From Candidatus Methylomirabilota bacterium (GTDB taxonomy: Bacteria > Methylomirabilota > Methylomirabilia > Rokubacteriales > CSP1-6), in NCBI GenBank assembly GCA_036002485.1, contig DASYTI010000057.1, positions 1 through 50,117 of the forward strand: a stretch of 50,117 nt of DNA, read 5' to 3'. The notes beneath the pieces are model-generated. The model was not told the DNA's origin. It searched no databases and saw only the letters and a program-made list of their open reading frames with translations. Both the position numbers and the translations under genes were made by a program. Of this stretch, positions 2,766 through 6,713 are shown one piece after another (within the stretch, counting starts at the first letter, position 1; each line of letters begins with the position of its first letter).

Positions 2766-3326
2766 TCAGCAGTTCATGTATTTGCCGCTCACCAGAGACT
2801 TCACGGTGCCGTCGGCGTCGAAGACGTGGCGCTGGAGGCCCATGAGGTCCTTGCCGTAGACGTGGATCTCCAGCGTGTCCTTGGTGGTTGGATTGTGCAT
2901 GGCGTGGATCTCGTCGTGGGGTGGCACGAGTCGGGACACGGCGCCGGGCTTGTGACGAAGCACCTCGCGCACTTCGAGCGCCACCTTGCCTCCGAGGGAG
3001 CGCGCGCCCGTGGAGACATAGCGCGTCTCCTGGATCTCGTTCTCGACCACCCCCACCAGGCCCCACGTTTCATGATCGTGAGAGCGGGCCTCGTCACCCG
3101 GCGGCCAGATCACCGAGGTGACGTTGAATCGCGGGCCCCGGTGGAGGATGTAGCGGCCCCGCTGACCCGCCGGCGCGGTGCGATACTCGGCGGGAATCGC
3201 CTCCGGATTGCCGCAGAGCTTCTCGAGGAACGGCGCCGCCCGGCGGGTGATGACCTCGGGGTCCTGCTCCTTGCTCGTGATCGCCTCGAGATCCTCGAGG
3301 AACTGCTTGAACGTGTACACCGTCAT
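2766..3326 (-). CDS. Cysteine dioxygenase-like (thiol dioxygenase) cupin protein
   Basis: This 186-residue cupin belongs to the type I cysteine dioxygenase/3-mercaptopropionate dioxygenase group. These enzymes use three-histidine Fe(II) to oxidise a thiol to a sulfinate. Iron ligands are visible as HDH in SHDHETWG and the later PHDEIHAMHN. The ATG at 3326 is chosen because GAGGAGGAG lies 5-6 bases upstream, directly after the stop of the sulfurtransferase gene 11 bases away. It is the last gene of the thiol operon, which supports a role in cysteine or mercaptoacid breakdown. Cysteine versus mercaptopropionate as substrate cannot be decided. Confidence 0.8.
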   Translation of the reverse strand: MTVYTFKQFLEDLEAITSKEQDPEVITRRAAPFLEKLCGNPEAIPAEYRTAPAGQRGRYILHRGPRFNVTSVIWPPGDEARSHDHETWGLVGVVENEIQETRYVSTGARSLGGKVALEVREVLRHKPGAVSRLVPPHDEIHAMHNPTTKDTLEIHVYGKDLMGLQRHVFDADGTVKSLVSGKYMNC

Positions 3327-3337
3327 CGATCTCCTCC

Positions 3338-4318
3338 TCAGAGCTCGACCGGTGTGTCGGAGCGGCCGCCCCACTCCGTCCACGAGCCGTCATAGACCGC
3401 GACCTTCTTGTGCCCGATCACGTGAAGCCCCAGGGCCAGCACCGAGGCCGTCACCCCCGAGCCGCAGGTGGTCGCCACCGGTTTGCGCGGATCCAGTCCC
3501 GCCTCGCGAAACGCCTCCTTGAGCCCCTCGGGAGGAAGGAGGGTGCCGTCCGGCCGGTAGAGCATGTCATAGGGCAGGTTGAAGCTGCCCGGAATGTGGC
3601 CGGCGCGCAGCCCCTGACGCGGCTCGGCCTCGGTGCCGTAAAAGCGGCCGCGCGAGCGAGCGTCCAGCACCTGCTCGCGACGCGTGTCGACATTGCGTCG
3701 CATCTGCTCGAGCCCGCGCACGAGCGCGGGCCGGAGCTTGGCGCGGAAGCGACGGACGGCGGGGGTGGGCGCCCCCGTGGCGAGGGGACGCCCCTCGGCC
3801 TTCCACTTCTTGAGTCCGCCGTCGAGCACAGCCACCCGATCGTGCCCGAAGGCCCGGAAGGTCCACCAGACGCGCGCGGCGCTGACCACGCCGCGGGTGT
3901 CATAGACCACGATGAGGTCATGGCTCGACAGCCCCAGCGCGCTCATGTGGCGGGAGAACTCCGCCGCCGCGGGAAGCATGTGGGGAAGAGGCGTGGTGCG
4001 ATCGGCGATCTCGTCGATGTCGAAGAAGACCGCCCCGGGGATATGCCCTTCCTCGAACTCGCGGCGCGCGCTGCGCTGGAGCTGAGGCATGTGCCAGGTG
4101 CCGTCCACCACGCGCACGCGAGAGTTCTCCCCGCCCCCGCGAGGATCAGATAGAACCGCGGCCAGCCACTCCGTGGTCACGACGAGGCCCGGGCTCTTGA
4201 AGGCGGCCGGCCCCCGGGCCGCCTTCGTGCGGGCCCGGGGTCGTGCGGGACGCTTCGCGCGGCGGCTTACTTTGACCGCGCGGCGTCGAGGGCGGCGGGG
4301 TCGAGATCGACTTCCCAT
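3338..4318 (-). CDS. sseA: 3-mercaptopyruvate/thiosulfate sulfurtransferase
   Basis: A tandem two-domain rhodanese. The N-terminal domain is inactive and the C-terminal domain carries the active loop CGSGVTA, the signature of 3-mercaptopyruvate sulfurtransferases (thiosulfate enzymes have CRxGxT). It moves sulfur from mercaptopyruvate to a thiol or cyanide. Two starts are possible. ATG at 4318 has GGAGG 10 bases upstream and overlaps the upstream rhodanese gene by 52 bases, adding a very basic 46-residue N-terminus. GTG at 4180 gives 280 residues, the normal family length, but lacks a ribosome site. I list the longer form; the core is certain and the start is not. Confidence 0.85.
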   Translation of the reverse strand: MGSRSRPRRPRRRAVKVSRRAKRPARPRARTKAARGPAAFKSPGLVVTTEWLAAVLSDPRGGGENSRVRVVDGTWHMPQLQRSARREFEEGHIPGAVFFDIDEIADRTTPLPHMLPAAAEFSRHMSALGLSSHDLIVVYDTRGVVSAARVWWTFRAFGHDRVAVLDGGLKKWKAEGRPLATGAPTPAVRRFRAKLRPALVRGLEQMRRNVDTRREQVLDARSRGRFYGTEAEPRQGLRAGHIPGSFNLPYDMLYRPDGTLLPPEGLKEAFREAGLDPRKPVATTCGSGVTASVLALGLHVIGHKKVAVYDGSWTEWGGRSDTPVEL

Positions 4319-5853
4319 TTCAGATAGGCCTCCATGGCCTCGCGGCCCTTCTCGTACGGCTTGAGCACCACATCGTCGGTCTCGTCGAGGAGTCGGCTCT
4401 TGCCCGTCTCGAGCGCGAGCCCCACCCGCTCCCACGCAGAGGTGCCACCGTCCAGCACGCGGACGGCGGCATAGCCGACGCGCGCGAGCGCGGCCGCGGC
4501 GAGCGTCGAGGGCCGCCCGTCGCGGCACGTGAGAACGAGGGCCCGTGTCCGATCGGGGAGAGCCTGTGGAGCCTTGAGCTCGAGGCGGCTGCGGCACAGC
4601 CATGCCGCGCCCGGCACGTGGCCGCGGGCATAGACATCGCTCGGATCGACGCTGAGCACGGTGGGCGGCTGTCCTCCCGCGAGCGCGGCCTTGAGCTCCG
4701 CCGCCACGAGGCTGCCCACCACCTCCCGCGCCGCCGCGAATCCCCACGGCTCGGCCTCGGGATGGCCGGTCTCGATGGCGCCGCCCTGCTCGATCCATGC
4801 GGGGAGCCCGCCCGAGAGCACCGCCACCTGAGGCAGACCCATGCGCTTGAGCCACGAGGCGGTCATGACCGAGCGGCCGGCGCCATCGCAGACCAGCACG
4901 ACGCGCGCGGCGCGCACCGCGATGTACTCGTCGGTGGCCTGGACGGCCTGGCCACCGGGGGCCCACGCGGCGCCCGCCAAATGACCGGCCTCGTATTCCT
5001 CGCGCATGCGGACATCGAGGACGACGACATTCTCCTCGGCGCGACGGGCCCAGAGATTGCTCAGCTCGACCGCCGTGATGGATGCGATCCCGTCATCCTT
5101 GGCCACCCGCGCCGCCACCGCGCGCGCCCGCTCGCGGCCCGCCTCCGACACCGCGGGCGCCCAGCGCTGGGCTCCCCGCTCGAGGGCAAAGCCGGCCAGC
5201 TCCCAACCCATGGTGCCGTTCTCGAGGGCCACGATGGGATTGGGCAGCCTCATGCGCCGGAGAGACTCGGCGCCGATATAGCTCCGGGTGCGGCCGCCGC
5301 AGTGGACGACGATGGTGGTCTCGGGTTTCGTGGCGAGCTCGCCGATCCGCAGGGTGAGCTCGCCCCCCGGCATGCTCACGGAGCCCGGGATACAGCCCCG
5401 GTGATACTCCTCGGGCGTGCGCGAATCCACGATGACCAAGTCTTCGCCGCCATCGATCCGCCGCTTCAGCTCGTGAGGGGGGATCTCGGGCGTGCCGAGG
5501 TGATGGAGGGCCCATTCCCCGAACGCCTTGCTCGGCACGTTGATGCCCGTGACGGTTTCCCGCCCTCCCGCGCACCAGTCGCCAAGCCCTCCCTCGAGCG
5601 TGCGGACGTCGGTATAGCCCATGGCGCGCACCATGGGCGAGGCGAGCGCGGCCAGGGTGCCGTCGCCGTCACACAATACGAGGGGCGTGCCCTTCGCCGA
5701 CACGAGATCGCGCAGCCTGAACTCGAGGAGCCGCCGGGGCAGAGAGGTCGCGCGGAAGATATGCCCGCGCTCATAAGCCGCGCGCTCGCGGAGATCGAGG
5801 ACGGCGTGGGGCGCCTCGCCCGCCATGAGCGCGGCCAGCTCACGCGGCGTCAC
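4267..5853 (-). CDS. Four-domain rhodanese-like sulfurtransferase
   Basis: This 528-residue protein carries four rhodanese modules in a row. Each has a cysteine at the active-loop position: LVLCDGDG, VVHCGGRTRS, LVCDGAGRS and LTCRDGRPS. There is no signal peptide. Rhodanese domains carry persulfide sulfur on that cysteine. The GTG start at 5853 overlaps the TGA of the upstream VKOR-thioredoxin gene as GTGA, the hallmark of coupled translation. Starts further upstream would run inside the thioredoxin domain. The neighbours (mercaptopyruvate sulfurtransferase, thiol dioxygenase, thiol oxidoreductase) point to sulfane-sulfur handling. The physiological acceptor is unknown. Confidence 0.85.
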   Translation of the reverse strand: MTPRELAALMAGEAPHAVLDLRERAAYERGHIFRATSLPRRLLEFRLRDLVSAKGTPLVLCDGDGTLAALASPMVRAMGYTDVRTLEGGLGDWCAGGRETVTGINVPSKAFGEWALHHLGTPEIPPHELKRRIDGGEDLVIVDSRTPEEYHRGCIPGSVSMPGGELTLRIGELATKPETTIVVHCGGRTRSYIGAESLRRMRLPNPIVALENGTMGWELAGFALERGAQRWAPAVSEAGRERARAVAARVAKDDGIASITAVELSNLWARRAEENVVVLDVRMREEYEAGHLAGAAWAPGGQAVQATDEYIAVRAARVVLVCDGAGRSVMTASWLKRMGLPQVAVLSGGLPAWIEQGGAIETGHPEAEPWGFAAAREVVGSLVAAELKAALAGGQPPTVLSVDPSDVYARGHVPGAAWLCRSRLELKAPQALPDRTRALVLTCRDGRPSTLAAAALARVGYAAVRVLDGGTSAWERVGLALETGKSRLLDETDDVVLKPYEKGREAMEAYLKWEVDLDPAALDAARSK

Positions 5854-6713
5854 GGCCGGGCGCCCGCCTGCGTCGTGTAGCGGAACCTGGAGAGCTCGGC
5901 GAGGCGCTCGAGGGACAGCACTCCCTCGTGCTTCTGGCCGCCGATCATCCACGTGGGATAGGCGCGCACGCCCGCCCTCACGCAGCGCTCATCGATCGTC
6001 TTATGATCGCCCGTGGGATTGCACTCCACGTACGGCAGACGCTCCGCGGCAGGCCCGAACCGGGCCTTTTGCTCTTTGCACGCGGGTCACCAGTGGGCGC
6101 CGTAGAACACGGCCTGGTTCTTCTTGAGATGCTCGGCGAGAGCCATCTGGTATCCCGCGGGCGTGGAGAAGTCCGCGGCGAAGATGAACGCGCCGAAGAT
6201 CACCGCGGCCACGCCCGCCGTGATGCCGAGTCCGGCCAGGTGCTTCAGCGAATACGCCCGGGCAGGGGCCGCGGGCCGCCTCACCATCATGGTCACGAGG
6301 AGCAGGAGCGAGATGGCGCCCGAGGCGAGGCAGTAGGGGCAGGTGGCGCCGATCACGAAGACCGACAGGTACGTGAGGTAGATCGAGAAGGCCACCGCGG
6401 CCGAGACGAACATGAAGGCCGTCTGCCAGCGCCGCACGGTTTGCGGGATGACGCTCAGGACCAAGATGGCGGCGTAGACGGTGGCGCCCCAGAGGGCGGT
6501 GGGGAGACCGGCGAGGAGCGAATAGCGACTGGCCTGGACGATGTCGCAGCCGCTGCCGTCGCGGCAGAGGAAGGTTTGATTGCCGCCCAGCTTCAGCGCG
6601 GTCAGGTAGCCGGCCACGGCCAGACCCACGAGGGCCAACCCCGCGATGATCCAGTCCGGCCGCGACGTGACGGGCGGCGAGGGCATCTCGCGCGGCTTCT
6701 TGAGCTTCGGCAT
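5850..6713 (-). CDS. VKOR-thioredoxin fusion, probable selenoprotein (in-frame TGA = Sec209)
   Basis: Residues 1-190 form a bacterial vitamin K epoxide reductase domain with several membrane helices, loop cysteines C50 and C56 and the active CPYC motif (C125, C128). In related fusions a thioredoxin domain with WCPxC follows. Here the frame reads FYGAHW, then TGA (6089-6087), then PACKEQKARFG, and continues open to a TGA at 5852-5850 as a complete thioredoxin-like domain. So TGA replaces the first CxxC cysteine (U209-P-A-C212). The downstream stop overlaps the next start as GTGA. ATG 6713 has GAGG six bases upstream. A standard caller would stop at 6087 and give a 208-residue fragment. VKOR reoxidises thiol oxidoreductases using quinone. 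A nonsense mutation or a base error is the alternative. Confidence 0.8.
6051..6067 (-). promoter_or_regulatory. Candidate bacterial SECIS hairpin
   Basis: On the minus strand AGGCCCG (6067-6061) pairs perfectly with CGGGCCT (6057-6051) around the three-base loop GUU (6060-6058). The loop begins 26 bases after the in-frame TGA at 6089-6087. Bacterial SECIS elements are known to be stem-loops within the coding region just after the UGA, with the apical loop roughly 16-37 bases downstream and a G among the first loop bases. This hairpin meets all three conditions. SelB binding is inferred. Confidence 0.6.

Follow-up and report, generated by a model that had tools for sequence, protein, structure and literature searches.

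In the VKOR-thioredoxin (VKOR-Trx) protein of Synechococcus, electrons pass from substrate to the Cys209–Cys212 pair of the thioredoxin domain, then to Cys50/Cys56, then to Cys130/Cys133, and finally to quinone (PMC3800646). Bacterial selenoproteins, in turn, were inventoried in May 2026, with the resulting 119 prokaryotic families and subfamilies including thioredoxin, DsbA-like, DsbG-like, and other UxxC proteins, and no VKOR. A Methylomirabilota MAG for which another study predicted 63 selenoprotein genes is reported in a 2026 review (PMC13188914), the phylum being reported as very selenoprotein-rich. Considered here is a gene in which these two subjects appear to meet, that is, a VKOR-Trx fusion in which selenocysteine (Sec) seems to take the place of the first thioredoxin cysteine.

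The window, i.e., the whole 50,117-nucleotide stretch of DNA that was analysed, corresponds to contig 57 in a Methylomirabilota MAG of 4.45 Mb (253 contigs, 95.7% complete). On its minus strand, at 5850..6713, is a gene of 287 residues when translated with TGA as U, identified as a VKOR-[Sec]-thioredoxin by its PDB match to Synechococcus VKOR-Trx. The open reading frame starts with ATG at 6713, runs 208 codons to an in-frame TGA at 6089-6087, i.e., residue 209, and then continues for 78 further codons to a stop at 5852-5850. A sequence-only reading had proposed precisely this layout, namely a VKOR domain, the TGA, and a thioredoxin domain in the same frame ending at 5850, and its coordinates are exact, so that the VKOR-Trx reading with an in-frame TGA is confirmed. 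The VKOR domain (PF07884, residues 21-141; 6291..6653, minus strand) is recognised by hmmscan at 2.4e-26. The thioredoxin-like domain (residues 190-277; 5883..6146, minus strand) is recognised by its match to 3kp8, at 8.3e-24, and by Foldseek (TMt 0.94 against 3kp8), and has Sec209-Pro-Ala-Cys212 as its translated active site along with cis-Pro253, the latter within YPTW at residues 252-255. Two further cysteine pairs, placed by alignment and with roles as per PMC3800646, are a loop pair, C50 (6566-6564) and C56 (6548-6546), together spanning 6546..6566 on the minus strand, and C125 and C128 of a quinone-side CPYC motif (6330..6341, minus strand), which are the equivalents of Synechococcus C130/C133. 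All four of these VKOR redox cysteines are kept in orthologues. An NCBIfam scan of the protein matches VKOR models plus, weakly, glutaredoxin ones, and nothing else.

An end-to-end alignment pairs the translation with the Synechococcus VKOR-Trx of solved crystal structure (residues 22-277 on both sides, 4.3e-42), and the TGA falls on Synechococcus Cys209, the first of the thioredoxin cysteines, which is the outcome that the sequence-only reading had predicted for alignments with Cys-containing homologues. An AlphaFold model built using 19 orthologues (mean pLDDT 78) has Synechococcus VKOR as its best structural match as well, with TM 0.77 by query and 0.82 by target. Synechococcus matches emerging from a scan of genome contigs were rejected, those that were translated being stand-alone thioredoxin-like proteins lacking a VKOR fusion.

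Is the TGA simply a stop, with a truncated VKOR as product and the thioredoxin portion a decaying remnant? That is the reading which standard gene callers give, and selA, selB, and selC are indeed missing from the window's own MAG, as discussed below. Across the phylum, though, 21 of 24 VKOR-Trx orthologues possess TGA at the thioredoxin-site codon, with Cys found in the other three. TGA-containing VKOR-Trx genes are present in 18 of 60 genomes of the order (the window's own included), where one further gene, that of genome G034, is without TGA. A profile search over 95 genomes of the phylum then contributes three more TGA genes (G067, G069, G077) and two more Cys genes (G070, G072). The 21 TGA genomes are spread over three families of the class, and the Cys codon is TGT at loci L034 and L143, with L142 reading CPHC. 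More than half of the genomes of the order supply no VKOR-Trx match, and the enzyme thus is not universal within it. In a tree of these genes the window's genus has the Cys form of G034 next to it (support 87/93), and a change from Sec to Cys in that lineage is suggested on phylogenetic grounds; the other two Cys genes form a separate long branch, and many deep forks are unresolved.

Beyond the TGA the frame is open for at least 70 codons in 22 of 23 loci (the product of locus L138 ends approximately 69 codons past the site), as compared with only 3 and 9 loci for the other two frames. Pairwise dN/dS values after the TGA, 0.13-0.50, are similar to those of the VKOR part, 0.14-0.42, and as judged from these comparisons purifying selection is acting downstream of the TGA. 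The distal stop, rather than the TGA, overlaps by 4 nt (GTGA) the GTG start of the next gene, which encodes a multi-rhodanese protein (4267..5853, minus strand) and is a genus-specific neighbour. This overlap, as would fit with translation of the distal end, occurs in three genomes of the window's genus (G000, which is the window's own, G024, and G025). Given a TGA and an open downstream frame that are kept in 21 genomes, low dN/dS past that TGA, and Cys orthologues that are single continuous proteins, termination at the TGA can be granted almost no credence. The earlier contention that the extension is not random stands, given this conservation of the TGA and of the frame. A UGA that aligns with the Cys of homologues and which is retained as UGA in relatives, moreover, is a criterion for bacterial selenoproteins that the gene meets.

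Readthrough of a UGA nonetheless need not imply Sec. The codon could be read as Cys or Trp instead, that is, by a suppressor tRNA or via SelB-independent read-through, and both the equivalence of the site to a Cys in homologues and the lack of selABC in the window's own MAG would be compatible with that. Published criteria for bacterial SECIS elements (bSECIS) are a loop of 3-9 nt, a stem of 4-16 bp, and a spacing of 16-37 nt from the UGA, and further a G at loop position 1 or 2 and an MFE <= -7.5 kcal/mol (PMC13188914). In the window a hairpin of this type, with a 6-7 bp stem and a GUU/GGUUC apical loop, is found at 6051..6067 on the minus strand (-13.0 kcal/mol). All 21 TGA genes possess the same type of hairpin, GGCCC-GGUUC-GGGCC, 25-26 nt downstream of the UGA, with stems of 6-8 bp, loops of GUU (or of GGUUC without the uppermost G-C pair), and MFEs of -8.6 to -13.0 kcal/mol, and in all 21 every one of these criteria is satisfied. 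The sequence GGCCCGGTTCGGG, beginning 20 nt past the UGA, is invariant among them. Of the three Cys genes, the two that were folded, L034 and L143, use different codons at this position, reach just -6.1 and -0.6 kcal/mol, respectively, and have no hairpin.

Conservation of the hairpin is seen at the level of codons as well. At 27 columns the 21 sequences agree in an amino acid that is four- or six-fold degenerate, and synonymous variation is seen in 24 of them. The only columns without synonymous change are 217, 218, and 220 (GCC, CGG, GGG), all of which lie within the hairpin and of which CGG and GGG are non-preferred codons. By our count the chance of the invariant columns being exactly these three is 1 in 2,925. 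A covariation test revealed no compensatory base changes in the stem, but is uninformative since the stem hardly varies. When only the window sequence is considered, stems of such length arise in 1459 of 5000 synonymous resamples, and so the length is not significant, while a hairpin energy such as that seen at this spot is rare, being matched in 21 of 5000. The argument for the hairpin consequently rests on its conservation. An Rfam search of the site returned no SECIS family match, only a chance match to gyrA. With a Sec-type hairpin that accompanies UGA and is absent from the folded Cys genes, with relatives that carry a selA-selB-selC cluster, and with a selD in the window's own genome that likewise has UGA at a Sec position, decoding as Cys or Trp is very improbable.

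Within the order, selA and selB each score above cut-off in 54 of 60 genomes. Of the 21 TGA genomes 19 have selA, the exceptions being the window's own and G042 (81% complete), and within the order the picture for selB is alike; the genomes added by the phylum-wide search, G067, G069, G070, G072, and G077, all have selA. Because selA is almost ubiquitous in the order, its co-occurrence with the TGA gene is consistent with Sec use rather than discriminating. Among the nine selA loci that were scanned first, eight have a tRNA-Sec (UCA) next to the gene, as do the same-genus genomes G022, G024, and G025, and all three same-genus relatives with the VKOR-Trx gene have selA, selB, and tRNA-Sec together. 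The criterion of selA, selB, and selC for a bacterial selenoprotein is thus met at the level of the lineage. One genome of the same family, G052, listed as 100% complete, has no selA or selB match at the thresholds used, and is possibly a case of true loss of Sec use.

Within the window's own MAG, a search of its contigs did not find selA, selB, or tRNA-Sec. Candidates for tRNA-Sec there were all below cut-off, with eight that were checked by ARAGORN being ordinary Leu, Ser, Trp, Arg, and Gly tRNAs; candidates for selB also were all below cut-off, the best of them reading as an initiation-factor-2-like protein. What this genome does have is a selD that is itself a selenoprotein gene, with an in-frame TGA in CAGUASKMGPGDL (L017:1405-2481, minus strand, contig G000:C51). 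A second selD homologue, without TGA, forms the C-terminus of a 746-residue ORF (L018:310-2550, plus strand, G000:C54), the N-terminal half of which resembles an FAD/NAD oxidoreductase. Sec at the first CxxC position, as the sequence-only reading proposed, hence draws support from the Cys orthologues, the hairpin, selA, selB, and tRNA-Sec in relatives, and this Sec-containing selD. Of the sel genes for which it had proposed to test the host only selD was found, with absence of selA, selB, and selC formally meeting what it had named as a refutation, though an assembly gap is probable; the Sec-tRNA gene that it had proposed to look for was not found in this MAG but lies beside selA in the three same-genus genomes.

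A short dispersed repeat occurs near the sel cluster of the genus (L167:10332-10478, L168:1-93, L169:1861-1989 and 3814-3885, L170:6916-7100), copies of which coincide with the start of a contig and with synteny breaks. Contig C193 of the window's MAG is collinear with G022:C22 up to the repeat within which C193 starts, approximately 6.5 kb before selC. Contig C219 is collinear with the selB-side G022 contig up to another copy, and then departs into 7.6 kb of other sequence. With collinearity lost at the repeat on both sides of the cluster, and with the cluster present in same-genus genomes, absence of selABC is probably an assembly gap. The same geometry, i.e., C219 leaving synteny at a repeat copy and C193 beginning inside that repeat, could be as seen following a recent deletion. 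The protein would then be a functional selenoprotein in relatives, with the window's strain making the truncated product only. That scenario is not excluded, but a repeat-caused break is the simpler reading, and with the gene, its hairpin, and the Sec-type selD all intact, the cluster kept in all three same-genus relatives that have the gene, and the MAG both fragmented and incomplete, recent loss is considered unlikely.

A Sec-containing VKOR-Trx, its UGA decoded under the guidance of a hairpin, thus is very probably what this gene encodes, and the protein most likely is a de novo generator of disulfides, albeit without expression, mass-spectrometric, or enzymatic data. The TGA and its conservation, the hairpin, and the fold family are observed, while Sec insertion itself is an inference, in which SelB together with tRNA-Sec would decode UGA 209, with guidance by the hairpin deduced from its conservation. 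The thioredoxin domain, by homology, would be periplasmic and is fused to the membrane VKOR homologue. Substrate thiols, themselves an inference, would reduce a Sec209-Cys212 selenenylsulfide, and electrons would continue via C50/C56 and C125/C128 to membrane quinone, a direction of flow and a quinone-dependent oxidase activity that are inferred by homology with Synechococcus VKOR. General selenium chemistry implies that an exposed Sec should accelerate exchange with substrates and should render oxidative damage reversible. The 60 genomes of the order yielded no DsbB, though six of the control genomes did, and it is from this absence together with retention of the redox cysteines that a role in quinone-linked disulfide formation is inferred. 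That de novo disulfide formation in these bacteria, whose order is without detectable DsbB, runs through the selenoenzyme is favoured, though with considerable reservation; if true, then selenium would be part of quinone-linked oxidative protein folding.

Downstream of the gene is a run of sulfur genes (window 2766-5853, minus strand) encoding the multi-rhodanese protein, a second rhodanese-like protein, and a cysteine-dioxygenase-like protein. Their order is kept in G024 and G025, with G022 lacking most of the first gene. Selenenylsulfides, furthermore, are usually more reducing than disulfides. The selenoprotein might, on the basis of such neighbours and such chemistry, act as a reductase or isomerase, or handle sulfane sulfur with rhodanese, rather than serve as a disulfide-generating oxidase. 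All of the VKOR redox cysteines are retained, however, an order without DsbB has VKOR as its known quinone-linked candidate left, and the rhodanese neighbour is not found outside of the genus, all of which leave this option unlikely, though not one to be dismissed. Rhodanese as a conserved partner was rejected given that confinement. The earlier suggestion, in which a thioredoxin or rhodanese system would be the exchange partner of Sec, is thus unsupported as well, since the thioredoxin domain is itself the fused partner.

Disulfide generation by a Sec-containing VKOR-Trx, then, would tie selenium to oxidative protein folding, and the naturally occurring Sec/Cys pairs are material with which Sec's contribution to a disulfide-forming enzyme can be tested. 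With gene callers that stop at TGA, such genes would be annotated as truncated VKORs, of 208 residues in the window. VKOR is not mentioned in a 2022 selenoprotein review, in two marine surveys, or in the deep-Sep paper; literature on VKOR with selenocysteine, or on Rokubacteria with selenocysteine or selenoprotein, yielded nothing relevant; and NCBIfam 20.0 contains no selenoprotein VKOR model that matches the protein. Given that 63 selenoproteins have already been predicted in a Methylomirabilota MAG, prior listing of VKOR-Trx as a candidate is possible. The finding is rated as the pairing, not previously listed in the inventories examined, of an enzyme architecture and a type of Sec motif that are each already known.

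Compared with known systems, the protein is like the HUIPC-motif selenoprotein (NF047660) in being UxxC and thioredoxin-like, though the NF047660 model did not match it in the NCBIfam scan. With the thioredoxin, DsbA-like, and DsbG-like UxxC selenoproteins of bacteria it shares a thioredoxin fold, Sec in the first position, and a bSECIS within the coding region, but unlike them it joins its thioredoxin domain to the quinone-linked membrane domain of a VKOR. The selenoprotein families thereby gain one whose architecture is that of a quinone-linked membrane protein, and from uncultured soil bacteria (the Rokubacteria group). With Synechococcus VKOR-thioredoxin (PDB 3kp9, 4nv6) and plant LTO1 it shares its overall architecture, and with the former also the redox pairs (C50/C56, CxxC, 209/212) at the same or almost the same numbering. 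Where Synechococcus has Cys209, however, the window protein instead has a UGA-encoded, presumptive Sec, followed by a bSECIS-type hairpin.
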